Below are positions 2,427-15,988 of a stretch of DNA of 40,557 nucleotides, in pieces. The translations under genes were made by a program, and so were the position numbers. Position 1 is the stretch's first letter. Every line of letters begins with the position of its first letter. Origin of the DNA: Paracoccaceae bacterium (lineage in GTDB: Bacteria > Pseudomonadota > Alphaproteobacteria > Rhodobacterales > Rhodobacteraceae); contig CACLGX010000013.1 of the NCBI GenBank assembly GCA_902606585.1, forward strand, positions 1 through 40,557. The letters are read 5' to 3'. The notes below the pieces were generated by a model, which saw only the letters and a list, made by a program, of their open reading frames with translations, was not told the DNA's origin and did not search any database.

Positions 2427-3112
2427 AAATGGCGGTGATTCCAGCGCGCGGAGGATCAAAGCGTATTCCCCTTAAGAATATTAAATTATTTGGCGGCAAA
2501 CCAATGATTTCCTGGTCCATTGAAGCTGCGCAAAAAAGTGGCGTATTTGATCGCATTATTGTGAGTACCGATGACGCTGAAATTGCCGCTGTTGCGCTAG
2601 AATATGGGGCCGAAGTTCCATTTATGCGCCCAGCCGAATTGTCAGACGATCATACAGTTACTAGCCCAGTAATAGCGCATGCCATAGAATGGCATTTAGC
2701 TAATGGTTTTGAGCCAGAACAGATATGTTGCATTTACGCGACCGCTCCTTTTCTCCAAAGTATAGATATTATGCGTGGTATGAAAATTTTGGAACAGTTA
2801 GAAGCTGATTTTGCTTTTTCTATAACTTCATTTGCGTTTCCAATCCAACGCGCGATCAAGCTGCGAACGGATGGCCGAATTGAAATGTTTGATCGATCGC
2901 AATTCCAAATGCGCTCTCAGGATTTACCTGAAGCCTATCATGATGCAGGTCAATTTTATTGGGGAACAAAAGACGCCTGGCTATCTGGCGTACCTATTTT
3001 TGGTCCAAATTCAGTTCCCGTGCACTTACCACGATACCGCGTGCAAGATATCGACACCAAAGAGGATTGGAAGCATGCTGAATTAATGATGGAAGTCCTA
3101 AAGAAACATTAA
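2423..3112 (+). CDS. pseF: Pseudaminic acid cytidylyltransferase
   Basis: Activates pseudaminic acid with CTP to give the CMP-sugar donor for flagellin or surface-glycan glycosylation. The 229-residue protein begins with the nucleotide-binding signature of CMP-NeuAc synthetases, IPARGGSKRIPLKNIK at about residues 6-21. It also has the family segments STDD (about 49-52) and YATAPFL (about 104-110). The start overlaps the pseC stop as ATGA. The next gene on this strand, only 5 bases downstream, is the truncated pseG, the classical partner. A NeuA or LegF role is possible by sequence alone, but pseB and pseC upstream make PseF the best call. Confidence 0.9.
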   Translation: MKMAVIPARGGSKRIPLKNIKLFGGKPMISWSIEAAQKSGVFDRIIVSTDDAEIAAVALEYGAEVPFMRPAELSDDHTVTSPVIAHAIEWHLANGFEPEQICCIYATAPFLQSIDIMRGMKILEQLEADFAFSITSFAFPIQRAIKLRTDGRIEMFDRSQFQMRSQDLPEAYHDAGQFYWGTKDAWLSGVPIFGPNSVPVHLPRYRVQDIDTKEDWKHAELMMEVLKKH

Positions 3113-3117
3113 AGCAT

Positions 3118-3210
3118 ATGGCCGATCCCTTAACCATTATATTCCGAACGGATGCTTCACTCGAAATAGGCACGGATCATGTAATGCGGTGCATTACCTT
3201 GGGACTGGGC
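3118..3210 (+). pseudogene. pseG: pseG 5' fragment, truncated by the mobile-element remnant
   Basis: Starting at the ATG 5 bases after pseF, the frame encodes MADPLTIIFRTDASL and then EIGTDHVMRCITLGLG. This matches the N-terminus of the PseG UDP-sugar hydrolase family, whose glycine-rich GTGH.MRC.TLA motif is diagnostic; here GTGH reads GTDH. After about residue 31 the frame runs into sequence that is the reverse complement of the MNEW element ORF and stops near 3283. More than 90% of the gene is missing. PseG normally removes UDP to release the altrosamine sugar before PseI acts, so an intact copy would have to exist elsewhere. Confidence 0.72.
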
Positions 3211-3477
3211 TTGTCTTTAAGTTCTTCGCGTAGTTCAAGCTGTTCTTGCCACTCTGCTTCTATTGTGCGTATTCATCTTCGCTAAGCCACGTTTGTAGCT
3301 GACGGTTTTGCACGTTTTCTCCACGCTTAAGTTTTTCAGCTATTCCTTCTAACTTATTAAGCCGCTTGGTTTCTTCCGCAGTCAGTGTACGACGTGGATA
3401 GCCTTTTCAATCCGCTCTTGCAGCAACTTACGGAAGTTAACACATGTCTTCTTTTGGTTGTCGTACCACTCACTCAT
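3205..3477 (-). pseudogene. Decayed 5' copy of the MNEW coiled-coil element ORF
   Basis: Read on the minus strand from the ATG at 3475-3477, this starts MSEWYDNQKK and continues FRKLLQERI. It matches base for base over long runs the 5' part of the intact ORF at 6730-7431, down to the segment at about 7160 of that copy. Small indels break the frame, so it is non-coding. Its ATG shares one base with the TAA of the upstream YdcF-like gene (TAATG). Its far end joins directly onto the pseG fragment at about 3205-3210. This is one of several remnants of the same element in the window. Confidence 0.82.
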
Positions 3478-4049
3478 TAGTAAGAAATCTTAGGGTAGAT
3501 CTTACCATTATAGAATGGATGCTTTTCTGAAAGCGCTGAAAAAATTTCATGCCTAGATGAAAAATCAATTCCATCAAATGTTTGGCAGAAAGCATCAAGA
3601 GATTGTTGTTCATGCATTAAAATTTCTGAATCTAAATTCGCTACTGTTTCCACCCCATATACTTCTATAGAGACAGAGTTGTTAAACACACGATTGAAAA
3701 TGAATTTTGTTCTTTCAACGTGGTAGTCTGACGTGACTACAACCATTTTTTTTAATTTGGAGCTACGAAAATAATCTAAACAGTAGATCGCATCACCGAC
3801 AGTATCGCGCGACTCCCTCACTGCCATTACTGATGAATTATCAATATCTGAATTTTTAAATATGTAATCACTTACAACTTCAGCAATTGGCACATCGCAA
3901 TCAGCACGATAATCCCAACCAAGTGTCACTAATTTATCGTATTGGTCGCTCGAAAAAAGTTTAATAGCCATATCTGCTCGTGCGACTGACTCGTCACCTA
4001 GTTCGCAAGACTTCGACATTAAGTGGGCTAAAACAACTAACAGATTCAC
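3477..4049 (-). CDS. YdcF/ElyC/SanA-like (DUF218) protein
   Basis: A 190-residue protein with the DUF218 fold signatures: ESRDTVGDAIYC at about 79-90, where the S-x-x-T segment lines an anionic site in family members, and VVTSDYHVERTKFIF at about 103-117. The start is GTG, immediately after the pseI TAG, with an AGGGG ribosome site inside the pseI end, so it is coupled to pseI. There is no membrane anchor, unlike E. coli SanA or ElyC. The family is linked to envelope glycan metabolism but its chemistry is poorly known. Here it sits in a sialic-acid-type gene block. A role in handling the sugar intermediate is only a guess. Confidence 0.7.
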   Translation of the reverse strand: MNLLVVLAHLMSKSCELGDESVARADMAIKLFSSDQYDKLVTLGWDYRADCDVPIAEVVSDYIFKNSDIDNSSVMAVRESRDTVGDAIYCLDYFRSSKLKKMVVVTSDYHVERTKFIFNRVFNNSVSIEVYGVETVANLDSEILMHEQQSLDAFCQTFDGIDFSSRHEIFSALSEKHPFYNGKIYPKISY

Positions 4050-5114
4050 CTAGTCACCCCTCTTAGCGAAGTGCTGAATGGTAACTCTATCCCCTCTTTT
4101 AGCAGAAATAAGACATTTTGATCCTATTACGTGATCGAAGTACTTGGCTTCTAATCCGAAACCAGGACGAATTCTTCGAACGCTTTCATTGGTGATAACT
4201 TCTCCCTCTTCTACATCTTTTATAAAGTACAATGAGCGCCGAAAGACCTTATTGCCATCTTCAACAGAAGACCTACTGAATGATTTAGATCCTAATGCAT
4301 GGAAAGCCTCTTTCGTTTCCTTTACTAGCGCGTTCATTTCAGTTGGCTCAAGCGAAAAGCTACTATCTACACCTCCATCAGATCTGTTTATTGTGAAGTG
4401 TTTTTCGATTGCAGTTGCACCAATCGAAGTGGCAAGTACACTTGCTAAATTACCAATTGTATGATCAGAGAGCCCAACTTGGATATTAAATTCCTTTTGT
4501 AATATCGAAATCATATTCAGATTAGCTTCAGATAAAGGCGCGGGATAACTACTGATACAGTGAAACAACAAAATGTTTCCATTGCCAACTGACTTAGCCG
4601 CTTCTAGCGCCTCACCAATTTCATCATACGACGCCATCCCAGTTGACATGAGTATCGGTTTATTCTTTTTAGCTATGTACTTGATAAGAGGCAAATCGAC
4701 TACTTCAAAAGATGCAACCTTATATGCTGGCGCATCCAAGCTATCTAACAAATCTACTGCGGTTTCATCAAACGGCGAAGAAAATAGCGTAATTCCGATC
4801 TCGTTTGCACAATCGAACAGCTCCTTATGCCACTCAAATGGAGTGTAGGCTTCGCTATACAAATCATACAACGATCGCCCCTTCCATAGCCCATCGTCGA
4901 TAAGAAAATCTGACTTATGGACATCAATTGTCATTGTATCTGGCGTGTAAGTTTGGATTTTAACTGCATCTACTCCAGCATTACGAGCTGCGAGAATTGT
5001 TTCTTTAGCCCGTAATATCGAACCGTTGTGATTTGCTGACACCTCAGCAATTATGTATGGGGCATAATCACTGGAAATTTCTCTAGAGTTAATGACAAAG
5101 CTATTAGTTGTCAT
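4050..5114 (-). CDS. pseI: Pseudaminic acid synthase
   Basis: A NeuB-family synthase condensing PEP with the 6-deoxy-di-N-acylaltrosamine to give pseudaminic acid. It has 354 residues. The TIM barrel shows IIAEVSANHNGS (21-32) and KIQTYTPDTMT (52-62), and then a GRSLYDLYSEAYTPFEWH segment. The last two are typical of PseI rather than NeuB or LegI. A C-terminal SAF/antifreeze-like domain occupies about 290-350 (RRSLYF, RPGFGL). It is encoded on the opposite strand from pseBCF, inside the mobile-element mosaic. It overlaps the upstream formyltransferase by 11 bases and abuts the YdcF-like gene, so the three form one translationally linked cargo block. Confidence 0.88.
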   Translation of the reverse strand: MTTNSFVINSREISSDYAPYIIAEVSANHNGSILRAKETILAARNAGVDAVKIQTYTPDTMTIDVHKSDFLIDDGLWKGRSLYDLYSEAYTPFEWHKELFDCANEIGITLFSSPFDETAVDLLDSLDAPAYKVASFEVVDLPLIKYIAKKNKPILMSTGMASYDEIGEALEAAKSVGNGNILLFHCISSYPAPLSEANLNMISILQKEFNIQVGLSDHTIGNLASVLATSIGATAIEKHFTINRSDGGVDSSFSLEPTEMNALVKETKEAFHALGSKSFSRSSVEDGNKVFRRSLYFIKDVEEGEVITNESVRRIRPGFGLEAKYFDHVIGSKCLISAKRGDRVTIQHFAKRGD

Positions 5115-5715
5115 GCTTAAGTCCTTCAGAATCTAATCTTTCAAGTTCGTCTGATATCTTTGCATTCCATCCAGAAAAATTAGTTGGTAAATCTTTTACA
5201 TAATGAATAGTCCCATCACCCCTTTGCGGTTTTGCTGTCCAAGTGTCGGTTAGCAACGATGGAAGAAATTCGAGGAACAAATCCTCCATGCTTTTGATTA
5301 GGACAGAATACGTCTTTACAAACGTGTCATCCGATTCCTTAAAATTGACATATTTCTGTTTAACAATTGGCCCAGTATCAATTCCACTATCAATTAAGTG
5401 TATTGTTACACCACTTGGAGTGTTGTCATAAAACGACCAAAAGTTCGGATGAGCTCCACGGTTATAGGGCAGAAACGATATGTGCAGATTTAATACTGGA
5501 CACCCAAAACCATCAATTGTGCTTTGTTTGAGAATGTGTCTGTATCCATAGCTAATCACACAGTCATAGCCCTTGATTGCATCAATTTTATCTGCCGTAT
5601 GATCAACAGCACATTTGTTAGCAATCAGAGCATCGATTAGTGTTGTCTGTGTTTGATCATAGCCAAGAAATAAAATTCTTTTTTTTGGACTGTCAATTTG
5701 ATTGATACTTATCAT
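5104..5715 (-). CDS. Formyltransferase-fold enzyme, probable sugar N-formyltransferase
   Basis: About 203 residues from the ATG at 5713-5715. The formyltransferase catalytic triad is recognisable: N and H in LNLHISFLPYNRGAHPNFW and D in HLIDSGIDTGPIV, as in methionyl-tRNA and sugar formyltransferases that use N10-formyl-THF. The frame stays open upstream to 5832, but those codons are the integrase fragment read in another frame, so I reject that longer start. It overlaps pseI. By context it probably formylates an amino group of the sugar made by the neighbouring Pse enzymes, perhaps replacing the missing PseH acetylation. The exact substrate cannot be read from sequence. Confidence 0.75.
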   Translation of the reverse strand: MISINQIDSPKKRILFLGYDQTQTTLIDALIANKCAVDHTADKIDAIKGYDCVISYGYRHILKQSTIDGFGCPVLNLHISFLPYNRGAHPNFWSFYDNTPSGVTIHLIDSGIDTGPIVKQKYVNFKESDDTFVKTYSVLIKSMEDLFLEFLPSLLTDTWTAKPQRGDGTIHYVKDLPTNFSGWNAKISDELERLDSEGLKHDN

Positions 5716-5716
5716 T

Positions 5717-5854
5717 TCAACGGCTTTTACGTGCGTACTTGTTTTCTTTTGGTAACCACATACGAAATTGCCAATACTCACCTCGCTTGTAGATACAAGT
5801 TTCGTCAAATATTGGAATTTCGCCTTCAGCAAAGTGCTGTTTCTTCAGTGCCAA
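5717..5854 (-). pseudogene. Integrase N-terminal fragment (copy B)
   Basis: From a TTG at 5852-5854 the frame reads ALKKQHFAEGEI, then EYWQFRMWLPKENKYARKS, then TGA at 5717-5719, 45 codons in all. It is nearly identical to the start of the longer copy at 14877-15275 (RMWLPKENRYARKS). That copy looks like the N-terminal, DNA-binding part of a phage-type tyrosine recombinase. Only one base separates its stop from the formyltransferase ATG, so the cargo begins exactly where the integrase is cut. No catalytic domain remains. Confidence 0.65.
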
Positions 5855-6023
5855 TCTTAGTCTCTGAGTTACTACGAGTTTCAGTAGTCACACGTTTGTG
5901 CAACATTTTGTGTAACTGTAAGAAAAAAGACTAAGGAAATCAACGACTGATTGCTGAGTGTGAAAGTATATGAAAGTCACTAATACAATTAAAACAATGA
6001 CTTACACTAGAAAAACTACTCCC
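5720..6023. repeat. Integrase-end direct repeat (copy B)
   Basis: This segment is a direct repeat of 15141-15446. Similarity runs from the integrase codons through the upstream region, with shared blocks GTTACTACGAGTTTCAGTAG, AAAAAAGACT and GGAAATCAACGA. It ends at the shared AACTACTCCC (6014-6023 here, 15437-15446 in the other copy), after which the two sequences diverge. I read that point as one end of the mobile element. In this copy it is the boundary between two tandem elements. Confidence 0.7.
5868..5891. repeat. Core-site-like inverted repeat upstream of integrase copy B
   Basis: GTTACTAC, an 8-base spacer GAGTTTCA, then GTAGTCAC: 8-base arms with one mismatch. Two such arms around a 6-8 base spacer is the layout of a tyrosine-recombinase core site. 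It lies just 5' of the integrase fragment and is identical in the second copy at 15290-15313. It could equally be an operator for the integrase gene. Confidence 0.4.
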
Positions 6024-6118
6024 ACTCAGTAAAAACGCTGATAATTTCTTGTTTAAGATTAACCATTTACTACACCTGAAAAGTTAGTGTGTAACTAATG
6101 TGTAACTCAAACACCACT

Positions 6119-6236
6119 TTGCACGTTTTATTTGTGCTTATGCAATTATTGCAATTCAATAGTTTACACACTCACCACCTACACTGTGTAAGACGAAGAA
6201 CGTGCTTAATCCATACACGTTCTTCTGATCGTTTGT
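6119..6236. repeat. Element terminal repeat R1
   Basis: First of three related non-coding repeats (others at 12722-12848 and 13762-13842). Shared blocks are GCACGTTTT, CAATAGTTTA and GTGTAAGACGAAGAACGT. It contains a perfect 10-base inverted repeat, GAAGAACGTG (6195-6204) and CACGTTCTTC (6216-6225), with an 11-base loop. It follows the DUF6641 frame on the minus strand. The bases between it and copy B of the integrase end (about 6024-6118) hold no gene; the only structure seen is a tandem GTGTAACT at about 6090-6108. Confidence 0.65.
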
Positions 6237-6667
6237 TCATTTGTTCTTTTGTGTCACTCGTCTGCAAAACTGCGTTTGCTGTTCAATAAGTGCATCCAAC
6301 TCATCTAAATCAGCAGCTTCACGTACTTTACGCAGCACATCAGCCAATCTGCTTCAGTAGCTAGTTCGATAGCATTCTTACCTTTAGCAAACTCTAAAGG
6401 CTTGCTTACATAGCGCACTACAAGATTTATCTTTCCATCAACACTAGCAGTCCACCAACGCTTAACTTGTTTAGCAACTTCGACTTTGCGTTGGTTACCA
6501 TGTTCGTCAGTAACCCATTTGTGTTGCGTAGGTGTGTAGTCTTTATTTGATGCAAGTTGGATTTGTTCATCAATCTTTTCAATCAGCTTGCGACGATGAA
6601 CAGCGATAGGGTTGTTGTTTTGAAGTGGATTAAAAGCAACGAAATTTAACGTATCAAGTACAGTCAT
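6237..6667 (-). pseudogene. DUF6641-family protein gene with a one-base frameshift
   Basis: From the ATG at 6665-6667, with a strong AGGAGG ribosome site upstream, the protein begins MTVLDTLNFVAFNPLQ. It contains RRKLIEKIDEQIQLA and RWWTASVDGKINLVVRYVSK, which I recognise from memory as DUF6641, a small family of unknown function often near integrases. The annotated frame stops at 6305, but after about 6345 the family-like continuation (DVLRKVREAADLDELDALIE) runs in the neighbouring frame to a TGA at 6237-6239. The full span of 431 bases is one short of a whole number of codons, so a single-base deletion (or sequencing error) explains it. It lies downstream of the MNEW ORF. Confidence 0.65.
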
Positions 6668-6729
6668 AACAGCCTCCTAGTTAGCTAAAAGCATTGTGCT
6701 TTCAGAGCTTGGTGGCTGTCATCCAAAGA

Positions 6730-7431
6730 TTAGTCTTCAGTGTTCAGAAACTTATCTAACTTGGAAGCTGTATCTTTAGATGCTGGCACTGCGTCTCTGC
6801 CGATGTTGTACATTGCTAGTTCAACCACAGCTAACTTAACACACTGCTTGTTTGTAAGTCTGCTGTCATCACTTAGCTTTTCATGACTGCGCGATGTAAC
6901 TAGGCGAGGAAGCGAAACTATATCTGCGCTTAAGCCACTACCCATTTCAAAGCTAATATCCCTATCAAACCAAACGCGAAGATTACTGTCATAGTGCAGA
7001 ATTTCTTGCAGTAGCTCTAGCGCATCTTCACAAAGTCTTTCACTCTTGTTGTAAAACGTCTTAGCAGTATTGTGCTTACCTTTGCTGCTGTAGCCTTCTG
7101 CTCTGTTGTAGTTAAAGGTAGCTTGCTTCAGCTTCTCTTCATATCGCTTTAAGTCGCTTGGCTTGTCTTTAAGTTCTTCACGTAGCTCAAGCTGTTCTTG
7201 CCACTCTGCTTCTATCTGTGCGTACTCGTCTTCACTAAGCCACGTCTGCAGCTGACGATTTTGCACGTTTTCTCCACGCTTCAGTTTGTCAGCTATTGTC
7301 TCTAACTTCGCCAAGCGCCTGGCTTCTTCAGTAGTTAGTTTGCGACGCGGATTAGCTTTTTCAATTCGTTCTTGCAGCAACTTACGAAAGTTGCTGCTTT
7401 GCTTCTTTTGATTGTCGAGCCACTCATTCAT
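6730..7431 (-). CDS. MNEW element protein, coiled-coil, unknown function
   Basis: Unrecognised 233-residue protein and the only intact copy in the window. I start it at the ATG at 7429-7431 (MNEWLDNQKK) because the partial copies at 3477 and 13920 begin at the same codon; the longer frame from 7467 lies inside the upstream gene. Residues about 8-110 are highly charged and helical, with LTTEEARRLAKLETIADKLK and repeated E/K/L heptad-like stretches suggesting coiled coil. The C-terminal part is more globular (LRVWFDRDISFEM, LTNKQCVKLAVVELAMY). There is no signal peptide or membrane segment. It overlaps the DUF4910 gene by 8 bases and precedes the DUF6641 gene, so it is probably part of the mobile element's own gene set. 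Confidence 0.7.
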   Translation of the reverse strand: MNEWLDNQKKQSSNFRKLLQERIEKANPRRKLTTEEARRLAKLETIADKLKRGENVQNRQLQTWLSEDEYAQIEAEWQEQLELREELKDKPSDLKRYEEKLKQATFNYNRAEGYSSKGKHNTAKTFYNKSERLCEDALELLQEILHYDSNLRVWFDRDISFEMGSGLSADIVSLPRLVTSRSHEKLSDDSRLTNKQCVKLAVVELAMYNIGRDAVPASKDTASKLDKFLNTED

Positions 7432-8704
7432 TTGCTTGGAGTAGTTTGTGCTCAACAAGCTTATCAACTAGCTCATAAAGCTCCCAAATGGGAGTGCTCA
7501 AACTTTCCGCTATTTGCAAAAGAGTGTTTTCTCCATCACATAGACTTATGACATCCATCATCAATCTAACTTGCTCTCCAGATTTTTTTGTTGATAGCGT
7601 TGGATAAAGTCCACGCTTACCCATTTGAGGCTCACCAAGTACCGTAACGCGGTATTGTTTATTTCTCTCAATAGCCTCAATAGCTTTACGAATTGACCAA
7701 TAACCACCATCTAAGCCATTCGGTGTGACTACGTTATCTAAGTCATCAAGTGATGTATGGTATTCGGGATATTGTCCATACTTTGTACGCATGATCGATG
7801 CAATGGGAAGATCGATTCCGGGTGCACAATACTGGCGTTCATCACTGCCTCTATCTAGCCAAGTATATGATTTAAAGCCTGGATCAATATGTTTTAGAAC
7901 GTGTTTAGCAACATCATCACTTAATGTATTCCCATCACGCGATGGGAGATATGAGTATGCTCTATCATCTCCAACACAAGATACATTAAAGCCAGATATT
8001 ACTTTCTGCTTCATTTCATTATGATTTAAACTAAGATAAGTTATGGATCCTATAGTTTCGGGAATGAAAACAATTCTATATGTGTACTTGCGCTCACTTA
8101 GATCAGACAGCCACTTCGCCAAGAATGTAACGACTGTTGGGCCAGAAAGTTCGTTATTCGCCATTGAAGGATGGCAAATGTAGGTGCTCATGAATAATTC
8201 CTTCTGATTTTCACCAGGTATTATCAGCTCACCGTAGTTAAGCACGCCATCAAAGTGTTTAGCTTCTATTTTGACGTAATAGTCACCATCTTCTAACTGA
8301 TCAAATTGATTTTGGGAAAGACAGAAACCCCAGCGTTCTTTGTAATAACTTGTAATGTAAGGAATAGCTTCTGGTTGTTCATGTAAAGTGTATAAATGTT
8401 CCTTTAAGTCTTCTAATGTAATGTTTCCATCGAAGGATGTGCTGTAACCCAATAAATGAAGGTTGTTTACTTTAAAGTCACAGATTTTATCGCCACTGGG
8501 TGTGATAATGTAAGCTTCTGTAGGATGCCATTCTTTCGGCACAACCCAATCAAATACTTCTGTTCCAGAATGTACAGATTTGATTTCTAAGTCTGGCAAA
8601 TGCTGCTTTATCAGTTCGAGTGTTTTTCTTACTCCCTCACCAGTAATACTTCTGTTAATAGGCCAAAGTTCTTTTGCAAACTCATATAACTCCAGGCCTT
8701 TCAT
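7424..8704 (-). CDS. DUF4910/M28-like aminopeptidase-fold protein
   Basis: 426 residues. The layout matches the DUF4910 family: an N-terminal ELWPINRSITGEGVRKTL motif, a DUF2172-like insert at about 55-140 and an M28-type catalytic region. A C-terminal winged-helix-like tail follows (LLQIAESLSTPIWELYELVD). Candidate metal ligands are H and N in STYICHPSMANNELSG, the D/E residues in RGSDERQY, and H in YPEYHTSLDD. Such genes recur in surface-polysaccharide clusters, where their substrate is unknown; hydrolysis or transfer at an amide bond is inference. It is the last gene of the three-gene cargo block, its ATG sharing one base with the preceding stop (TAATG). Its final codons overlap the MNEW start, so the extreme C-terminus may have been set by that junction. 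Confidence 0.78.
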   Translation of the reverse strand: MKGLELYEFAKELWPINRSITGEGVRKTLELIKQHLPDLEIKSVHSGTEVFDWVVPKEWHPTEAYIITPSGDKICDFKVNNLHLLGYSTSFDGNITLEDLKEHLYTLHEQPEAIPYITSYYKERWGFCLSQNQFDQLEDGDYYVKIEAKHFDGVLNYGELIIPGENQKELFMSTYICHPSMANNELSGPTVVTFLAKWLSDLSERKYTYRIVFIPETIGSITYLSLNHNEMKQKVISGFNVSCVGDDRAYSYLPSRDGNTLSDDVAKHVLKHIDPGFKSYTWLDRGSDERQYCAPGIDLPIASIMRTKYGQYPEYHTSLDDLDNVVTPNGLDGGYWSIRKAIEAIERNKQYRVTVLGEPQMGKRGLYPTLSTKKSGEQVRLMMDVISLCDGENTLLQIAESLSTPIWELYELVDKLVEHKLLQANE

Positions 8705-10149
8705 TAAAAAGTCTCCTTAGTTGTCAAAGCTGTGAGAATACCGTTGTAAGTCTTAAGGCTTTCGAAATCTGCAGAGGAGAATTTCCGTTTAAAAAGTCTT
8801 TCCACTTCTAACATTATTTGGATTTGAGCTAATGAATCCCATCCAGGTGTTAATCCCATTCCTCCATTACGTATTTCTTTATTCGATGCATTGCGGAGAA
8901 TAGATTTAATACCTTTGACTAACTTTTCTTCGTTATCACCCTCAAAAATAAAAGATTCCCCTTCGTCACTTTTTGAGGCAGCGACACTCAATGGTGAACC
9001 TTCCTCCCCAGTACTAGACGGCACAAATCCGTATACCCCAGCCCCCGTCGAACCAATATACTGTACAGTCATGAAAGATGAAGCTGTAGTTAAAGCGTCA
9101 TATAGCTTCGATGCAACTTCTCCAGGAAGCAGAGATGGCGCACTGCCTCTTATCTCTTTTGAATACTCTGTAGCCACAAAATCTGGAGCGAACACATAGC
9201 CATTCACTCCGTATGCACTTAACCCTGCATCCAACCTCTTAAGGTAACTCGCCGCCATAGACTTAGAGGCTGCGTAATCCTCAAAACCTTCTATCAGCGA
9301 TAGCATAGCGGTGCTACCGATTGACATAATTTTGCCATATTGCTGTCTACACATTTGCGGAAGAACCGCGGTAGAAATAGATTTAAGTGCTGAATAATTT
9401 ATTTCAACGAGATCTCTTAGTGGGGCATTTAATGGTGGTGATGCTGTATGGATTACAGCACCAATGTCTCCCAAAATTTCAATCCTTTCAATTAGCTTTT
9501 CTAAACCTTTATTTGTACTTAAATCCGCATCAATAAGCTCCAGAGAACTGTTATCTTCGCTCATTAACGCATCTTCGTTTAGTTCCCGTTTCGACCTACT
9601 GTGAAGTAATAGAGACCATCCCTCTTCAGCAAACTTTCGAGCAATTGCAGAACCTATCGCGCCCGAAGATCCCGTAATTAGGACTCGTTTCTTCAAAGAG
9701 GCTTTGCTCACTTCACAATCTATTTCTTGATCCCATTCAAAACGCAATGCACGCGTATTCATCTCTGCATCAAAGATTACTCTGGCCCCTACAAGTCCTA
9801 AGACCCTAATTTTCATCACTCTCTTTGCAGGATTTAGGGCAATAATTTTGGCCGAATAAGTGATAGTCTCCCCATACTTCAATTGGCTCACAGCCCTTAC
9901 GCTGTGGCTTAAATACAGCGAAGGAGCGCCAGGAAAGTTCATGCCAGCTACTCGCGAGAGCGGTCCAATAATTAAGTGGAGCGGAACAATCAAATGATTA
10001 TTTGCATAATCCGCTGCGTATTCTGCGTCATGATGCAGAGGGTTTAGATCCCCACTTATATGCGCAAATTTTTCAAAGTCCTCTTGTTGAAATGTTTTTT
10101 CAAAATTAATTACATCGCCAACAGAAAACTGCTCAAAATTTAAATTCAT
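8704..10149 (-). CDS. MaoC-like hydratase / SDR reductase / acyl carrier protein fusion
   Basis: A 481-residue three-part protein. Residues about 1-138 are a MaoC/hot-dog hydratase domain with the GDLNPLHHD active-site loop (D34, H39). Residues about 153-375 are a short-chain reductase with TGSSGAIG (159-166), S279 and YAASK (Y292, K296). Residues about 405-475 are an acyl carrier domain with GWDSL, S439 being the expected phosphopantetheine site. This suggests a carrier-bound acyl chain that is hydrated or dehydrated and keto-reduced on one polypeptide. It overlaps the AAC(3)-HAD gene as ATGA, so the two are co-translated. The chain length and final acyl group cannot be read from sequence. 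Confidence 0.82.
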   Translation of the reverse strand: MNLNFEQFSVGDVINFEKTFQQEDFEKFAHISGDLNPLHHDAEYAADYANNHLIVPLHLIIGPLSRVAGMNFPGAPSLYLSHSVRAVSQLKYGETITYSAKIIALNPAKRVMKIRVLGLVGARVIFDAEMNTRALRFEWDQEIDCEVSKASLKKRVLITGSSGAIGSAIARKFAEEGWSLLLHSRSKRELNEDALMSEDNSSLELIDADLSTNKGLEKLIERIEILGDIGAVIHTASPPLNAPLRDLVEINYSALKSISTAVLPQMCRQQYGKIMSIGSTAMLSLIEGFEDYAASKSMAASYLKRLDAGLSAYGVNGYVFAPDFVATEYSKEIRGSAPSLLPGEVASKLYDALTTASSFMTVQYIGSTGAGVYGFVPSSTGEEGSPLSVAASKSDEGESFIFEGDNEEKLVKGIKSILRNASNKEIRNGGMGLTPGWDSLAQIQIMLEVERLFKRKFSSADFESLKTYNGILTALTTKETF

Positions 10150-12653
10150 GAAGGGTCATCCTTTTCAAATTTATATTCAACCCATTTCGGCACACTTATA
10201 TTTTTTGTCTCTAATTTCCAAAAAGTATCCGAAGTAGCTTTAGAAAAACCAGCTTCCTTGTAGACATCACGCACAGGAGTATTACGCTCAGTCTCAATTA
10301 TCTCAGCTTTCAAGATATCAACTCCCTTTTCAGCAACAAATTTAGCTACAATCTTTGGTATTGCTGCTTCAATGCCTCTTCCAAGCACACGGCAGGACAA
10401 AAGAAACAAATCTATGGTCGCTTTTCTTTTATCTTGATATTTAATAACTAAAATACCTATGTTTTCCGGTGCTGAAAACTTGTCTGTGTAATTAACAACC
10501 AACACCTCATGTCCGGCCTGCTTTAGAGCGAAAAGCTGTTTTTGATCATAGCGCCGAGTAGTTGTGTTAAATTGATTTGTCTTTTGACACAGTTGGGCTG
10601 CGCGCGACGCATTAATTGCGCTTATGCTGGTAAGGTTTAATGTAATGCCTAAAGAACAATAGTAGTCATCCAAGCTTACAGCATCTGTTTTGAGCGCTTT
10701 GCGTTTTTTACTTGCAGAAAAGTCTTTTAAACGTCCTAAATCTTCTTTAGTGATCATGACTGGTTGTAAATATGGTGATGACTTTAAAATTGAGACATAT
10801 TGTGCTGGATCATCTGTTAATGGCAAAACTTTTACATCTGGCAAATTGCGTATTACGGACTCGCGCTCGACGGGATTATCGTCTATTAACATAACTGAAC
10901 TTAAACCCAAATTTAACTCTGCTGCCATCCTCTGAATATTTTTCCATTTTGGTTCCCAGTTGATGCCATAAGTTTGAATATTTTGTGGACGAATAATCAT
11001 ATCTGGCATCTCCGAAATAGCATTCATAGCTAGATCTTCATCATTTTTTGATGCAATTCCTAAAGCAATACCTCTTTTATGATGTTCTAGCAATTCAACT
11101 TGAAAGGCTTTAAAGGCGTTTCCCGGATAATCTTCCCCAAGTTGTAATCCTTCTATTCCTTCTTCGCCCAGCACACCACCCCAGAGTGTATTATCCAAAT
11201 CGATAATTATTAATCGAACATCCTTACCCAGCATCGCTATAACAAATGAAACCCATCTGTGAGCCAGATAGGATGAGAAGCCATCACTGAAAGGAAATTT
11301 CCCAACAAACTCTAGTCTTGGATCGAAAGCCAAGCCGTCGTATGACGCGAGCTCTGCCCCAAGGTCTAAAAGTATGACTTGAGGCACGCTTTTTAGCTCA
11401 TCAGACAAAATTTCATTGCATTCGGCAATTAGCTTTGCATGCAGATGAGATTGATTTGCTGCAAGAGTAGGCAACTCCAGAGTGAATAGATGAACCACAC
11501 TCCACCCGCCCACCGTTTCATGAAAGTCTTTTATGGATTTAGCATATTGAGAAACTGCATTTAACGTTTTTTCTCTATCGGAAAAACTTACACCTGTCAG
11601 ATCTTTAAAACGATCTATAAAGATCTTGATAAATGGAGGCGAACGGTAGATGTCGCCAGTGTGATCAATTAAACTTCTATACATTTGACCGAATGGTATT
11701 TGGTGAATAAATGATTTTCGTTCGGGTATCAAACGGTCTAAAAACGACTTTAAATGTTGGTTAAAAATCTCAGTATTTTTGCTACTGAAGATGGAAATTG
11801 ATATTTCGTCTGCCCGGGTTCTTTCAGTTCGCTCGTTTATTTTTTTAACAACATAATTTTTATTAGAGACGAATGAAAATGGATCGCTTTGCAATAGCCT
11901 CAGGCAAACATCTTTTATATTGTTAACATAAGTGCACTGAATACTCGCACCAAAGATGCTTGCTTTATTTATGAGATGAGCGGCCTCCATTTCACTCACA
12001 GCTGATGTAAAATCATTTATAGGCTCCAAATCCAATGACCTAACAAACATAGAAGACACTGTAGAGATAGCTCCTTCTCCATAATCAGCTGTCCCCTCAA
12101 ACGTTTTAAACTCCCTATATTTAACAGCTGCTAATTCTTCATACCTATGAAATAGGGTGCAATATTTCCAATCACAACCTAACATCAAAACTTGAGCATT
12201 TTGCTTCTCAAGCCATTCGAAAACGCTGCCAAGACCGAAGGTTGTTTTGGGTAACAGGCTATTTATCGATGATGTTTTTTTACCCAAACTCACAAATGAA
12301 TAAATAGGCGCAGCAGTTCTTGTTGCATCAGGAAAGTTTAACAAGACTTTATCTGCAAGAATTCCAGTTTCTGATGGGGATTTCTTATATGAATAAAATT
12401 TTTCGGAGCAAAAGCTAAAGGTAAAAGAGGGAAAAAGAAGGGTCCAACCTTCATCAACTAACTCTCCAACCGCATAAAGAATGCTCCAAATAAAATCTTT
12501 ATCTTTTACCCTGAAGTTCGACAAGTCAGAATGAATAAGAGCTACACTTGGCTCTTTTGGTAACACTGAGCGAATTTGCTGGAGGAGTATCCCTCTCAGC
12601 GTATTATCTTCTTGTAATTCTGGAAAAGCTTTTCGAGCCTTCAGGTTCGTCAT
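10146..12653 (-). CDS. AAC(3)-like acyltransferase / FkbH-type HAD-IIIC / GNAT fusion
   Basis: 835 residues with several domains. About 20-265 resembles the aminoglycoside 3-N-acetyltransferase family (ALIHSDL, GWTLLFPSFTFSF, LGCDWKYCTLFHRYEE with candidate H169). About 280-475 resembles the N-terminal part of FkbH-like proteins. About 480-620 is a HAD-IIIC phosphatase domain with DLDNTLWGG (D485, D487), SKND (535-538) and DDNPVERE (591-598). About 640-810 is the GNAT-like C-terminus usual in FkbH. FkbH enzymes load a glyceryl unit from 1,3-bisphosphoglycerate onto an ACP, and the ACP is encoded immediately downstream. The extra AAC(3) domain could move the finished acyl group to an amino sugar; that step is inference. 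Confidence 0.82.
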   Translation of the reverse strand: MTNLKARKAFPELQEDNTLRGILLQQIRSVLPKEPSVALIHSDLSNFRVKDKDFIWSILYAVGELVDEGWTLLFPSFTFSFCSEKFYSYKKSPSETGILADKVLLNFPDATRTAAPIYSFVSLGKKTSSINSLLPKTTFGLGSVFEWLEKQNAQVLMLGCDWKYCTLFHRYEELAAVKYREFKTFEGTADYGEGAISTVSSMFVRSLDLEPINDFTSAVSEMEAAHLINKASIFGASIQCTYVNNIKDVCLRLLQSDPFSFVSNKNYVVKKINERTERTRADEISISIFSSKNTEIFNQHLKSFLDRLIPERKSFIHQIPFGQMYRSLIDHTGDIYRSPPFIKIFIDRFKDLTGVSFSDREKTLNAVSQYAKSIKDFHETVGGWSVVHLFTLELPTLAANQSHLHAKLIAECNEILSDELKSVPQVILLDLGAELASYDGLAFDPRLEFVGKFPFSDGFSSYLAHRWVSFVIAMLGKDVRLIIIDLDNTLWGGVLGEEGIEGLQLGEDYPGNAFKAFQVELLEHHKRGIALGIASKNDEDLAMNAISEMPDMIIRPQNIQTYGINWEPKWKNIQRMAAELNLGLSSVMLIDDNPVERESVIRNLPDVKVLPLTDDPAQYVSILKSSPYLQPVMITKEDLGRLKDFSASKKRKALKTDAVSLDDYYCSLGITLNLTSISAINASRAAQLCQKTNQFNTTTRRYDQKQLFALKQAGHEVLVVNYTDKFSAPENIGILVIKYQDKRKATIDLFLLSCRVLGRGIEAAIPKIVAKFVAEKGVDILKAEIIETERNTPVRDVYKEAGFSKATSDTFWKLETKNISVPKWVEYKFEKDDPS

Positions 12654-12721
12654 TAGATTTCATCTCACAAATTCATTGGTTCAGTATCAATATAATCTTA
12701 TAGATTTGTTAAGGGTATGAA

Positions 12722-12848
12722 CAGCACGTTTTTTCTACGCTTGCTGTAGCGTATTGTATTGTGGCAATTCAATAGTTTACGCAATCACTTGTTACACAGT
12801 GTAAGACGAAGAACGTGCTTAAACAAAACACTTTCGCCATTTAATTTG
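12722..12848. repeat. Element terminal repeat R2
   Basis: Second copy of the terminal repeat. It shares GCACGTTTTTT, GCAATTCAATAGTTTA and GTGTAAGACGAAGAACGTGCTTAA-like blocks with R1. The palindrome TTACACAGTGTAA lies at 12792-12804. The hairpin arms that are perfect in R1 are degenerate here (GAACGTG against CACTTTC). It lies between the small methyltransferase block and the AAC(3)-HAD gene. From 12654 to 12721 I see nothing beyond the leader of that gene. Confidence 0.65.
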
Positions 12849-12965
12849 TCACTTGTTCTTTTGTTTTACTCGTCTGCCAAACTGCGCTTGCTTCTCTATC
12901 AACACCTAACTTCTGTAAGTACTCCACCAAAGAAAACTGCTTTGTAAAAGTTTACGGCTTCGTTG
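12849..12965 (-). pseudogene. Deletion scar joining MNEW and DUF6641 remnants
   Basis: Directly after the methyltransferase stop, the minus strand encodes RKLLQ in a context matching MNEW codons FRKLLQ. Further on, 12849-12902 encodes LIEKQAQFGRRVKQKNK and a stop, the same tail seen for the DUF6641 frame beside R1 (LIEQQTQFCRRVTQKNK). The two genes are thus collapsed by an internal deletion to about 115 bases. The MNEW part is short and the match weak; the DUF6641 tail is clear. Confidence 0.55.
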
Positions 12966-13676
12966 TTATCTTCTACAAATCAAGTTGAATCGAAATTTTG
13001 AATTTCCATAACTTGAAACACAATGTGGAAAAAAATCAATATCCTTCATTCCAATAGATTTCAAAAAATTATATAAAGACCGTTTTTCATAAAAAAGATG
13101 ATTTAAATCTTTGTAATTAGACTCGTACTCTTCTAATGATCTGTATTCTTTGGACCTTTCGGAGTGATAGTTTGTCTCAAATTCAGCGTCATTAATATCT
13201 AACAGTACCAAAAAACCATTTTTTTTAATCTTACTGCACCAATTTTCTAACACTTTTTCCGAGTACTCTATTGAAGGAAAATACTGAAAAACACTGTGTG
13301 ATAAAACAAGATCAAATAAAATAGAACTAAAGTTTTTTTGGATTGCTTCATCAGCTATAAAATTACCATTAGGTATAGCTTTTTTAGCTACGTCTATTAA
13401 ACTATTACTGTAATCAATACCATAAAAATTTGCCTCTACAATCTCATTTATAGCATATAAAAATGCCCCACTCCCGCAACCGAGTTCTAAAATATTACTA
13501 TCGATAGTCAATGAAGTTCTTTGAAAAATGTCTGCAACCATTTCCCTCCATTCAAATAGATTATAGGAACCAACTCCTGTGTCAAAACCATCTGCTAAAA
13601 TGAGTTGCTCTAGTGAGATATTTGAATCATTTTTAATTGTTTTTTTTGACCAAATTTCTTTCCATTTATCAGCCAT
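12966..13676 (-). CDS. Class I SAM-dependent methyltransferase
   Basis: 236 residues with the class I SAM-binding motif LELGCGSGAFLYAI (about 62-75), acidic loop YGIDYSNSLIDVAKKA, and motif IV/post-I region FDLVLSHSVFQYFPS. The KKNGFLVLLDIND segment is strand 5 and following. The substrate is unknown. It is flanked by element repeats R3 (upstream) and the R2 scar (downstream), so it is a single-gene cargo block, probably methylating a sugar or a sugar-linked group. The start ATG lies 7 bases after an A-rich stretch without a strong ribosome site. It is notably AT-rich, with runs of A and T. Confidence 0.8.
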   Translation of the reverse strand: MADKWKEIWSKKTIKNDSNISLEQLILADGFDTGVGSYNLFEWREMVADIFQRTSLTIDSNILELGCGSGAFLYAINEIVEANFYGIDYSNSLIDVAKKAIPNGNFIADEAIQKNFSSILFDLVLSHSVFQYFPSIEYSEKVLENWCSKIKKNGFLVLLDINDAEFETNYHSERSKEYRSLEEYESNYKDLNHLFYEKRSLYNFLKSIGMKDIDFFPHCVSSYGNSKFRFNLICRR

Positions 13677-13761
13677 TTTTTTACTTTCTGTTGTAATACT
13701 TAATTCAACAATCTTACAAATTTTGTAACTTTATCACTATTAAGCCATTCTTTTATTTCCA

Positions 13762-13842
13762 CTGCATTCCAATAGTTTATGCACTCAGCAATTACACAGT
13801 GTAAGACGAAGAACGTTCTTAATCCATACACGTTATTCTGTT
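13762..13842. repeat. Element terminal repeat R3
   Basis: Third copy of the terminal repeat: CAATAGTTTA, the palindrome TTACACAGTGTAA at 13792-13804, then GACGAAGAACGTTCTTAATC and CATACACGTTATTC. The hairpin arms of R1 are present with one mismatch (GAAGAACGT against ACGTTATTC). It follows directly on a truncated MNEW start. Bases 13677-13761 are leader sequence of the methyltransferase with no other feature seen. Confidence 0.62.
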
Positions 13843-13920
13843 CGTTTTTTCGCTTCGTTTTTGTAAAAACTCGCGAAAAGCACCACTTACCTTTTTTTGA
13901 CTATCAAACTATTTGCTCAT
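13843..13920 (-). pseudogene. MNEW 5' fragment with a nonsense codon
   Basis: Read from the ATG at 13918-13920: MSK, a TAG, FDSQKKVSGAFREFLQKR, SEK. This aligns codon for codon with MNEWLDNQKKQSSNFRKLLQERIEK of the intact copy, the stop sitting where tryptophan 4 should be. About 26 codons remain before the sequence passes into R3. The ATG shares one base with the TAA that ends the restored FkbM frame (TAATG), the same junction form as at 3477. Confidence 0.7.
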
Positions 13921-14794
13921 TAAGATTTTGGGACGGCTAAAATCATGTCGTAAAAGGTTTTTCTAAATGATTTTACTTTTACAAAATCTAACCTTTCACC
14001 AAAGAGTGGTCTACATGCAAAGCAAACAAGTTTTGCAATCACACTATCACCACAATAAAAGTTCTTTTTAATGGTAAAGAATTCATAACCAAGTTCGTTT
14101 AAATATTCAATTACTGAAGAACTACCACCGATGATTTCTGCTCAAACAATATTGCTGGCACATGCGTTAAAATTGTATTTTTCGCACCCTTCAAAACATT
14201 TAACTCATGACCTTCCACATCAATCTTTATAAGAGCAATACTCGCATCTTTTAATTCATTTAATTGGTCAAGTGTTTTCACATTGATTTGTATTGAATCC
14301 TTAATGCTCTTATTATTTGCATCAATTATCCCTGCACCTCCTATATTTGATGGGTTTATGTGGAACGGTAAGCTACCTTCTATGTCGCTTAATCCAAAAT
14401 TTAATGGCACAACATTTTTATGTTCAGCGGCATGTTTGCAGTTAATTTTAAGTACCTCATAAGTCACAGGACTGGGCTCAAACGCATAAATATTTTTAAA
14501 TTTTTTCGCAAAGAATATAGAATGATTTCCAATATTTGCGCCAATATCCAGAGCAGTTTTATCTTTTGCGTTAGGAATTTTTTTGTCGATGAATTCTTCA
14601 ACTAACAAGAGGGAAGAGTTCTCATATCGTCCTTCTAAATTTAAAGAGAGTCCGATGTGATCAAACGAGAAAATTACAAGTTGGGGATTTGTTTCTATGT
14701 TTTTACGTGCGATTGAATGATTAATTCGATTCAATATTATTTTGAATATTTTGCTGCCAACTCTTATCTTCTGCCCTTGCACAAAAATTTTCAT
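13920..14794 (-). pseudogene. FkbM-family methyltransferase with a C-terminal frameshift
   Basis: The frame from 14794 gives 227 residues: SAM motif ALDIGANIGNHSIFF at about 79-93, FEPSPVTYEVLK, and the FkbM signature IKIDVEGHELNVLKGA. It stops early at 14111. The neighbouring frame then continues in the expected way (AEIIGGSSSVIEYLNELGYE, later CGDSVIAKL) to a TAA at 13920-13922. The complete span of 875 bases is one base short of whole codons, so a single-base deletion near 14140 breaks the gene unless it is a sequencing error. FkbM enzymes O-methylate sugars. Its ATG overlaps a preceding stop (ATGA). Confidence 0.75.
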
Positions 14795-15275
14795 TTCTTT
14801 TTCTTTCTCTCAGCTAGTGAGCCTTTCAGCATCCCAGCAGTAAAGCAAAACTCTTTGCAAATACGCTTCACTTCTTTCAGTGCGTTAGTAAGCCCGTTCT
14901 TCTTAGCTTAATGTCTTTGCCAATGTAGCTTAGAAAATGCTGCAGATGCGTTGCGATTGTTTTTTGTCGTCTTTTGACTAGGTGTCCAAGTTCAACGTCA
15001 CGCAGTCGAAAGCTAAGATATTTTTCTACACCTTCTTTTGTGGTTATGGAGAAGTAGCTTTTGCCTTGTTGTAGTTTGGCGTAAATCTCTACGTACGCAG
15101 CTTTACCCTTTTCAATTGCAGTCGCTTCACTGTGTGTAAGTAGGCTTTTACGTGCGTATCTGTTTTCTTTTGGTAACCACATTCGAAACAGCCAACACTC
15201 ACCTCGCCTGTAGATATAAGACTCGTCATATAATAGTATTTCGCCTTCAGCAAAGTGCTGTTTCTTAAGTGCCAA
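14791..15275 (-). pseudogene. Integrase N-terminal fragment with fused tail (copy A)
   Basis: From a TTG at 15273-15275 the frame encodes MALKKQHFAEGEILLY, RMWLPKENRYARKSLLTHSE and a helical region to about residue 125 (TIATHLQHFLSYIGKDIKLR), then stops at 14877. N-terminal arm plus SAM-like core-binding domain is the arrangement of phage tyrosine recombinases; the catalytic domain with R, H, R and Y is absent. From 14883 to 14791 another frame encodes ALKEVKRICKEFCF and ends GSLAERKKKK, stopping within the FkbM start. This is probably the 3' end of the same or the next element gene after an internal deletion. The copy is non-functional. Confidence 0.65.
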
Positions 15276-15446
15276 ATCTTAGTCTCTGAGTTACTACGAG
15301 TTTCAGTAGTCACACGCTTGTGTAACATTTTTAGTGACTGTATGAAAAAAGACTGAGGAAATCAACGATTGATTTCTTGTTGTGAAAGTAATGAGTAAGT
15401 AATTAATCGTTTAAAATCAATTACTAATACTTAAATAACTACTCCC
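15141..15446. repeat. Integrase-end direct repeat (copy A)
   Basis: Partner of 5720-6023. It includes the integrase start, the upstream leader and the shared end AACTACTCCC at 15437-15446. Just outside, at 15453, begins a different, GC-richer sequence. This is therefore the best candidate for the outer boundary of the whole mosaic on the right. Confidence 0.68.
15290..15313. repeat. Core-site-like inverted repeat upstream of integrase copy A
   Basis: Same GTTACTAC-8-GTAGTCAC arrangement as at 5868-5891, including an identical spacer GAGTTTCA. The spacer's conservation is expected for a strand-exchange region of a tyrosine recombinase, but the surrounding sequence is also conserved, so this alone does not prove the role. 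Confidence 0.4.
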
Positions 15447-15452
15447 TTTGAA

Positions 15453-15690
15453 TCATCTCCAAATAGTATGTTGGGAAAACCGCAAGTACCGCGAGACGGT
15501 ACTCGGATCTGACCAACCGCCGGCGCGCATCATTGCGGCGAGGTCTTAGCCCTTTGTCAGTAAATCTTGAGCAGCACCGACCCACAGGGAGTACCCCGAA
15601 ACCTCCAAATCATTGGCCGCTCGCATCTCTTCAACTTCAAGATGCTGCGTTTTATAATGTCATTGACGTTTCGGTCGCAGATGGTGCGGT
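15453..15690 (-). pseudogene. Decayed, GC-richer tyrosine-recombinase C-terminus
   Basis: The minus strand encodes, in pieces, RTICDRNVNDIIKR, then in a second frame MRAANDLEVSGYSLWVGAAQ and DLLTKG, a TAA, and then DLAAMMRAGGWSDPSTVSRY and LRFSQHTIWR before a TGA at 15453-15455. The last part is the C-terminal box of phage integrases with the nucleophilic tyrosine in VSRY. Where family members read HS.RVGAAQ this copy has YSLWVGAAQ, so both the catalytic histidine and arginine codons look changed by C-to-T mutations. One frameshift and one nonsense codon confirm decay. Its composition is unlike the AT-rich integrase pieces next to it, so it is probably an older, separate element. Confidence 0.65.
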
Positions 15691-15796
15691 CCTTACATTT
15701 CCTATGATTTATCGCGCAGAATACGGGCTTATTTTCCTGAGGCTTTAGCCTAAGCCACTTTCTGGCTAGCTACGCATTTTTTTCGGAGCCGAACAC

Positions 15797-15834
15797 AAGC
15801 CGACCCTTTCTGTATTGGTCGGTTTTACTTTTTC
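15797..15834 (+). terminator. Rho-independent terminator, plus strand
   Basis: CCGACC (15800-15805), 11-base loop, GGTCGG (15817-15822), then TTTTACTTTTT. The stem extends by a G-T and two A-T pairs. The T-run is only on the plus strand. No plus-strand gene is evident upstream: 15456-15790 is the decayed integrase on the other strand. The transcript it once ended may have been lost. Bases 15691-15988 otherwise show no gene. Confidence 0.6.
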
Positions 15835-15988
15835 TAATCATTTCCTTGAGCGCGCCGTCTGTTGTGAACTTAAGGTCATCACTTCTAATTGTAACGAGCT
15901 CGGAGCGGCGAGGGCGCAGCGCAGGAAAGCCCTCAAGTCCTGGTGCGCGTTTAACTGAGACGAGAGAACCCTAATTCCTGAAACGAAC

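Follow-up and report, generated by a model that had tools for sequence, protein, structure and literature searches.

Introduction

Genomic islands at the 3' end of guaA with the core 5'-GAGTGGGA-3' and a demonstrated integrase are already known from PMC9376610 and PMC7775301, in the context of which Harmer 2017 and Song 2012 are cited. According to these reports, GIsul2 uses this core at guaA and secondary plasmid sites reduced to GGGA, with integrase-driven excision and integration (PMC9376610), and ICERspD18B has a P4-type integrase with alpA next to it and conjugation genes (PMC7775301). Here we describe related elements in the window, positions 1 to 40,557 of contig CACLGX010000013.1 (C13) from a draft genome of a Paracoccaceae bacterium (G000, 1.81 Mb, 73% complete), where an earlier note made from the sequence alone had seen glycan genes bounded by pieces of one repeated mobile-element module with an integrase N-terminus, an open reading frame (ORF) named MNEW and a DUF6641 gene. 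As in GIsul2 and ICERspD18B, the insertions lie at the guaA 3' end with the same core, an integrase beside guaA and direct repeats at both ends. Unlike those two, for which resistance cargo is described, the islands here hold mostly glycan cargo in a fixed, apparently translation-coupled slot between a short ORF, sORF58, and MNEW, and unlike that of ICERspD18B their integrase is not of the P4 type. With a probability of about three in four, we favor the view that the region represents guaA-targeting islands stacked in tandem and since decayed, with an exchangeable, coupled cargo slot, the cargo being replaced by homologous recombination between the flanking arms. The family would then be a variant of the guaA-associated islands.

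Surface glycans decide phage attachment, and how marine bacteria change them so fast is an open question. A small island with one glycan gene or operon that stacks in tandem and collapses into multi-gene operons offers a concrete, testable route to such change, and a swappable slot for sugar genes suggests one way in which marine bacteria gain new surface coats. MNEW, sORF58, DUF6641 and GAGTGGGA can serve as markers for a census of this process.

Results and Discussion

An island family at the guaA 3' end

The integrase N-terminus, MNEW and DUF6641 are components of a single integrative-island family that inserts at the 3' end of guaA with the core GAGTGGGA. The repeats that bound the cargo in the window were recovered as the earlier note had described them, and the same architecture recurs in other genomes, so that it is not a product of chance. 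In L096 (genome G1006, 99% complete), which holds an intact island of 7.2 kb, the order is guaA, core, integrase, second tyrosine recombinase, DUF6626, ORF94, sORF58, cargo, MNEW, DUF6641, core (Table 1). Halomonas sp. QHL1 (L074) has the same backbone with a complete integrase between two cores and a GNAT cargo; no match to sORF58 was found there. Both cores together with guaA were read in L038, L066, L072, L074, L081 and L096. Counts were made over 17 loci outside the window, namely 13 loci confirmed out of 157 stretches in a pattern search of genome contigs plus L038, L066, L067 and L096. Ten of them have guaA upstream (L038, L066, L070, L071, L072, L074, L078, L080, L081 and L096) and sORF58 was found in 12, while four of the seven loci without guaA in view (L075, L076, L079 and L082) have less than 3 kb of upstream sequence.

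The integrases of L096, L074 and L066 matched Phage_integrase, those of L096 and L066 also weakly DUF6538, and no other integrase-domain model scored above its cutoff with these three. Each island would integrate at GAGTGGGA through this tyrosine integrase. Between L096 and L066 the integrase is 94% identical and the guaA protein 53%, which indicates that the family crosses between Alpha- and Gammaproteobacteria. A second tyrosine recombinase, consisting of the catalytic domain only, is present in L096 and L074. Some copies also lie outside guaA: the left end of the window array retains only GGGA (15446-15443) of the core, which would fit a secondary insertion, and L077, a SAR116 locus within a pse cluster, terminates in GAGTGGAA, one base from the core. 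Pfam recognised no conjugation genes or relaxase among the scanned backbone ORFs of L096 and L074, and no AlpA-like match was found in a scan that covered part of the backbone ORFs. One ORF of 178 amino acids in L074 (8107-7571, minus strand) was without a Pfam or PHROG match; it contains a THIHFF stretch that by eye resembles an HUH motif and might be a replication or mobilisation protein. In a genome of the same class (G130) an integrase fragment of the same family with 47% identity lies beside a gene that by eye looks like guaA (L016, 10157-9357, minus strand).

The borders of the cargo slot

The right border was examined in 19 MNEW copies with an alignable 5' end and preceding sequence. 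In 18 of these, the end of a same-strand upstream ORF fell within a range from 8 nucleotides (nt) past the MNEW start to 59 nt short of it: five overlapped by 8 nt, one by 4 nt and three by 1 nt, and the remaining nine left gaps of 1, 2, 9, 17, 18, 24, 25, 32 and 59 nt. Mean pairwise identity among these 18 copies, taken in 10-nt blocks, was 0.26-0.31 over the 60 nt ahead of the MNEW start and 0.50-0.77 over the 60 nt that follow, with 0.77 in the first 10 nt. In the window the three cargo ends that the earlier note had placed at MNEW starts are borne out, with TAATG and a 1-nt overlap at 3477, an 8-nt overlap at 7431 and TAATG at 13920, where MNEW is broken and the FkbM gene frameshifted. Outside the window 15 loci showed the same fixed position, with varied cargo ending at the MNEW start. 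Junctions were not scattered, and MNEW was not met as an ordinary core gene. The counts leave out L097, L098 and L102 (distant or partial MNEW), L099 (a scrap), L075 (only 37 nt of the contig precede MNEW) and the second copy of L078, whose start codon is ACG though homology begins there and whose FkbM cargo ends 24 nt before. L068 and L079 are one record, as are L082 and L101, and each was counted once. Three imperfect copies were kept, those of L068 (aligned start ACG), the first of L078 (ATA, with an ATG 3 nt upstream) and that at 13920 (FkbM taken in its last register).

At the left border 14 loci have a readable sORF58 stop and cargo start, and in 10 of them the two overlapped by 4 nt (ATGA or GTGA), namely at window position 14794 and in L007, L038, L070, L071, L072, L078 (twice), L080 and L081, with a GTG start in L070 and L080. 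The other borders were a 1-nt overlap in L077 and a distance of +42 nt in three islands with AT3-SGNH cargo; L073 (distant sORF58, 146 nt) and L074, where sORF58 is missing, do not count among the 14. Against a background of 34 in 242 same-strand neighbouring ORF pairs that allow a 4-nt overlap (31 loci, islands included), the binomial probability of at least 10 in 14 was 1.7e-6, a value to be read with the rows not fully independent and four of the ten overlapping cargos of FkbM type. The sORF58 tail ahead of the cargo start contains a purine-rich stretch of the GAAGG type that could act as a ribosome site for the cargo. The earlier note had taken the block start at 14791 for a cut integrase; it is the sORF58 stop (14793-14791), the sORF58 tail being fused there to an integrase fragment. 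The FkbH block of the window (start 12653) sits in the same slot, because the sORF58 leader and first codons precede it (12762-12631 versus L077 5426-5555, 86%). A resemblance of sORF58 to a truncated H-NS, suggested by its look, found no support in Pfam, NCBIfam or a PDB sequence search and was dropped.

We propose that one exchangeable gene or operon sits between the sORF58 stop and the MNEW start and would be translated in coupling with its neighbours, as suggested by ATGA or GTGA at the left and often TAATG or 8-nt overlaps at the right. The tight fusion of starts and stops may be kept by selection for this coupling.

Comparison with other mobile elements

Integrons likewise place promoterless-looking cargo at a fixed position near an integrase and form arrays of units. 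Unlike in integrons, no attC-like conserved site was seen at the cargo ends, where the 60 nt before MNEW were at background similarity in the 18 copies, as judged by primary sequence only. Furthermore, the core bounds whole islands instead of single genes, and the integron integrase model TIGR02249 was not matched by the L096 integrase and gave 36.5 bits against a cutoff of 265 with the second recombinase. Phage satellites and Gamma-Mobile-Trio elements resemble the islands in having a conserved backbone with exchangeable cargo at set positions. Unlike in the latter, the integrase did not match the GmtY model, and the second recombinase reached 27.7 bits against a cutoff of 340; unlike for the former, searches of phage and viral collections found no phage-like relatives of the island proteins. 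Tycheposons are integrase-bearing islands that alter the flexible genome of streamlined marine bacteria and target tRNA genes, whereas the islands here target guaA. One slot remnant in a genome of the same genus (L014, G002) does adjoin tRNA-Met instead of guaA; the tRNA is followed by a 5' remnant of MNEW and an FkbM gene (14240-14316, 14481-15236). In the open-access literature searched, we found no paper on DUF6641 or DUF6626 and nothing on guaA or glycan islands that describes such a slot.

Cargo

The cargo is mostly concerned with surface-glycan modification and sometimes with restriction-modification. It comprised FkbM and other methyltransferases, AT3-SGNH acyltransferase, formyltransferases, DUF4910 proteins, SASA acetylesterase, GNAT, PseI, and SDR plus AMP-ligase genes with hexapeptide or GNAT transferases. 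An Eco57I-type methylase with a ResIII/T5orf172 protein occupied the slot in L078 and, by DNA similarity (63%), in L073; one L072 cargo of 475 amino acids was without a family match. The GC content of MNEW and DUF6641 was 38-45% with hosts at 30-59%, and that of the cargo was below it in all 10 islands measured. The function would plausibly be to change surface glycans against phage or grazers.

Probable exchange, stacking and collapse

The earlier note had named homologous recombination between elements as an alternative to capture by the integrase, and this alternative is the better supported, since relatives exchange cargo between conserved arms. L067 carries the same cargo as L066 and L096, and its right arm is closest to that of L038 (85% over 1377 nt), which carries FkbM, while the right arms of L067 and L066 are 74-78% identical. 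On the left side, the arms of L067 and L038 show some of the lowest similarity (79%). The three AT3-SGNH cargos (L066 11239-13170, L067 11218-13152, L096 11642-13576 on the flipped locus) matched at 40-49 positions per 50 (80-98%) in the first 300 alignment columns and at 1-24 per 50 (2-48%) in the rest. Their AT3 parts are near-identical and their C-terminal parts largely dissimilar; the 3' part, adjoining MNEW, appears to have been replaced or to have diverged very fast. The pattern is consistent with possible natural domain swaps, which may change acyl specificity. Likewise, L068/L079, L076 and L077 have the SDR-ligase part in common (77-86% at the DNA level), followed by differing genes up to MNEW. 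Cargo would thus be replaced by homologous recombination between conserved stretches, namely the leader with sORF58, shared 5' parts of the cargo, and MNEW with DUF6641.

Several units follow each other in the window, in L067, in L072 and probably in L078. Joints of a right end, a core and a left arm were read at 6027-6020 in the window, where the exact core on the minus strand had gone unnamed in the earlier note, and at 14558 in L067; another is probably present in L078 at 11351, although the left arm resumes only about 300 nt later. Successive islands would join end to end at the core, and recombination between the repeated arms would then remove backbone and leave cargo operons in series. 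In L072 two cargo-MNEW units seem to be fused, the 3' end of the first MNEW having been lost together with DUF6641 and the left end that followed. At 12763-12744 of the window a right end runs straight into an sORF58 leader near the 21-nt motif GCAAGCGTAGAAAAAACGTGC. In a scan of 23 sequences with up to 4 mismatches, L066, L067, L077 and L096 carried this motif both before sORF58 and after DUF6641, in the same orientation. L080, L038 and L081 had it on a single side, and other sequences gave a weak match (4 mismatches) within MNEW. Such hits can arise by chance, because a 4-mismatch hit also occurred on the opposite strand of L077; the motif may be a recombination or binding site. The MNEW codons for KRGENVQN (e.g. 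window 7283-7263, minus strand), among the most conserved stretches of MNEW, resemble the motif with 4 mismatches, either by chance or from a possible role at the DNA level.

Alternative explanations

Several observations weigh against the proposed array of guaA islands. The window array is without guaA and without a complete integrase, and has one exact core and one GGGA only. The earlier note had suggested looking for cargo beside a full-length integrase and ending at the MNEW start; L096 and L074 show precisely this, but over the 17 loci tblastn found the integrase in six (L066, L070, L072, L074, L078, L096) and DUF6641 was present in nine, so that many copies are decayed or incomplete. The 19th MNEW copy (L069) is an orphan 5' end whose upstream 555 nt contain no gene on the same strand, the MNEW start is lost in L038, L080 and the first L072 copy, and the slot region of L099 holds an opposite-strand gene that by eye resembles a sulfatase. 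Cargo-like genes lie also to the left of sORF58 in L070 (FkbM, 6675-7568) and in L080. In-frame stops interrupt sORF58 in L070, L071, L077 and L080, with its tail and stop codon still conserved; coupling there cannot need translation of the full sORF58. The pairs L076/L077 and L068/L077 with the same cargo diverge about equally in cargo and MNEW, and exchange is therefore not frequent. No empty slot was found with one exact pattern over 115 loci, and none was met on reading loci.

Ordinary decay, in which deletions would have brought island remnants and glycan genes together at random without any special position for cargo, describes parts of the window, which is heavily decayed, has no unit with a complete integrase and contains a methyltransferase block devoid of slot borders. 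For the slot it is contradicted by 15 loci elsewhere that share the right border but differ in cargo, including two in which a complete integrase lies between two cores, and as a general explanation we hold it to be highly improbable. MNEW and DUF6641 could instead form an insertion module of their own that lands at gene 3' ends, the cargo being whatever gene precedes; even the orphan L069 shows homology from the MNEW ATG onward, and the gene end at which PseI-DUF218 is interrupted differs between L077 and the window. Such a module, which we regard as very unlikely, leaves unexplained why the left border at the sORF58 stop is just as tight and why the backbone is shared on both sides.

A cassette system, in which the main integrase or the second recombinase captures cargo singly at the sORF58 stop and MNEW start, could produce sharp DNA borders for many cargo types, and several features point in its direction: the second recombinase in L096 and L074, the 21-nt motif in the same orientation on both sides and, less well matched, in MNEW, the GAGTGG that 8 of 18 copies have at the MNEW start, the two cargo-MNEW units in L072, and PseI directly before MNEW in L077 but PseI, DUF218 and then MNEW in the window. 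The left border, however, has no core or common motif, L066 and L072 lack the second recombinase between integrase and sORF58, the 21-nt motif flanks both sides in only 4 of the 23 sequences scanned, and no free or empty cassettes were seen. GAGTGG varies to GAATGG and GAGCGG as expected of coding constraint on Glu-Trp codons, and we do not claim the MNEW start as a disguised core site. Capture of cargo by the main integrase, as proposed in the earlier note, is unsupported because GAGTGGGA flanks whole islands at their outer ends and not the cargo, whose left border is the sORF58 stop. We hold a cassette system to be quite unlikely. Unlikely as well is a form of gene capture distinct from integrons, in which a dedicated process, with the second recombinase, paired 21-nt repeats or MNEW itself as candidate agents, places promoterless host genes precisely with their start on the sORF58 stop and their stop on the MNEW start. 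If it were true, the island would be a natural expression site with which marine bacteria assemble new operons for surface glycans.

Layout of the window

The array runs on the minus strand from 15446 to 3205 and adjoins pseB-, pseC- and pseF-like genes on the plus strand (265-3112; labels by look), which we take to belong to the pseudaminic-acid pathway. The array has collapsed and now contains about four cargo units (Table 1). Island A is modelled as left arm, integrase N-terminus, sORF58 tail, FkbM, MNEW scrap and right-end scrap, followed by the methyltransferase with a DUF6641 scar; island C as sORF58 leader, FkbH-SDR-DUF4910, MNEW, DUF6641, right end and core; and island D as left arm, integrase scrap, formyltransferase-PseI-DUF218 and MNEW scrap, terminating beside pseF. 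A fourth block ending beside an MNEW/DUF6641 scar at 12965 was part of the earlier note; the scars are present, but the block is without both slot borders and has right-end scars only. Repeats within the window pair 3205-3478 with 7157-7432 (81-95% identity), 5722-5968 with 15143-15390 (89-90%), and 6150-6249 with 12763-12862 and 13763-13862 (74-83%). The PseI of island D is the only PseI match in this incomplete draft genome. L077 has the same convergent layout, with PseI cargo, a DUF218 remnant right after the right end, then pseF, pseC and pseB. In the relatives G002, G007 and G011 the pse genes lie on one strand with pseI inside the cluster and without an island-protein match; no exact empty site could be placed there, since the matched pieces are only 66-81% identical. 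Immediately outside the left end of the array (15457-15900, minus strand) lies a degenerate C-terminal part of what by eye is another tyrosine recombinase, reading ...DLAAMMRAGGWSDPSTVSRYL...

Table 1. Features of the window array and of the intact island L096 (coordinates of L096 on the flipped locus)
Locus	Feature	Position	Strand	Evidence and remarks
Window	Island left end arm	15276..15446	-	Starts with GGGA, sole core remainder here; 15446-14877 vs L066 9227-9789, 83% (L066 core GAGTGGGA at 9223-9230)
Window	Integrase N-terminal fragment, ~125 residues, fused to sORF58 tail	14901..15275	-	83% identity to residues 1-125 of the 411-residue L096 integrase
Window	sORF58 tail	14791..14909	-	Stop TGA overlaps cargo ATG; 75-86% DNA identity to L066, L067, L038, L072
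Window	Cargo: FkbM-type methyltransferase	13920..14794	-	ORF 14794-14111, frameshifted beyond; PF05050, E 1.6e-17; last-register stop TAA overlaps MNEW ATG
Window	MNEW 5' fragment with early stop, joined to right-end remnant	13763..13920	-	Sequence comparison
Window	Methyltransferase flanked by two right-end scars, slot borders lost	12966..13676	-	PF13847, E 4.4e-15
Window	DUF6641 3' scar and right-end region	12763..12965	-	12892-12724 vs L038 right end, 78%
Window	sORF58 leader with 21-nt motif (12744-12724), continuing into FkbH start	12631..12762	-	86% to L077; motif with 0 mismatches
Window	Cargo operon: FkbH-domain enzyme, SDR/MaoC-like protein, DUF4910 protein	7424..12653	-	TIGR01686, PF00106, PF16254; end 8 nt inside MNEW
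Window	MNEW ORF, 233 residues, sole intact window copy	6733..7431	-	Relatives in other genomes; no family, no fold match
Window	DUF6641 gene	6305..6667	-	PF20346, E 1.7e-20; model matched to position 123 of 143
Window	Right-end region with stem-loop-like inverted repeat (by eye)	6150..6304	-	Member of the 6150-6249 repeat set
Window	Core GAGTGGGA, joint of two tandem islands	6020..6027	-	Exact; right end on one side, L066 left arm except 1 base over the next 25 on the other
Window	Next island's left end arm and integrase N-terminal fragment	5722..6019	-	6031-5722 vs L066 9219-9530, 92%
Window	Cargo operon: formyltransferase, PseI, DUF218 protein	3477..5715	-	PF00551; TIGR03586 above cutoff; PF02698
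Window	MNEW 5' fragment, truncated beside pseF	3205..3477	-	84% to intact MNEW
L096	Core	7768		
L096	Integrase	7943..9178		
L096	Second tyrosine recombinase	9175..9744	-	Followed by DUF6626 and ORF94 homologue
L096	sORF58	11417..11599		
L096	Cargo: AT3-SGNH acyltransferase	11642..13576		
L096	MNEW	13576..14277		
L096	DUF6641	14340..14771		
L096	Core	14981		

MNEW and DUF6641: structure and distribution

MNEW matched no Pfam or NCBIfam family. AlphaFold2 models of the L067 proteins had a mean predicted local distance difference test (pLDDT) score of 80.0 for MNEW, predicted to be mostly helical, and of 83.6 for DUF6641, and neither model matched a PDB structure at E <= 0.001. The two are thus backbone protein families devoid of functional annotation or a solved fold relative in the searches made.

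MNEW occurred in 2 of 101 relatives and 5 of 385 genomes of the class (own genome included in both, one of the latter probably unrelated), in 6 of 293 genomes of the order of G341 (one probably unrelated), in 5 of 112 genomes of the family of G771 and in 1 of 28 of the family of G1006; these sets overlap. Weak matches in G778 and G1057 (34% and 25-29% identity, inside longer ORFs) are probably unrelated and were not counted. Carriers from the pattern search were SAR116/Puniceispirillum, Rhodospirillaceae, Yoonia, Halomonas, Porticoccaceae, Litorivicinus, Haliea and other metagenome-assembled genomes, one of them labelled Cephaloticoccus. MNEW and the integrase gave no match in phage, plasmid and viral collections, and carriage of the island by a phage, satellite or plasmid was set aside on these grounds.

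DUF6641 was found in 17 of 398 genomes of the phylum at E 0.001, 16 of them above its cutoff. Alone it is not diagnostic of guaA islands, because guaA was present in only 3 of 20 DUF6641 stretches (4.6-20 kb), and it was rejected as a marker for them. The 1.7-Mb genome G333 has four DUF6641 genes (L041, L043, L046, L048), and only the L046 stretch shows guaA, followed by an integrase of 420 amino acids, genes that by eye resemble restriction-modification genes, and DUF6641.

Several genes lie between guaA and sORF58 in L080 (5072-7988), one of them by eye similar to the SASA-type esterase of the slot, and cargo may also accumulate to the left of sORF58. Distant MNEW-like ORFs in L097 (164-1612) and L102 (47-1615) start inside the end of a large upstream ORF, which in L097 is a TPR plus 2OG-Fe(II) oxygenase protein, and have GAGTGGGA downstream; they possibly represent a second branch of the family.

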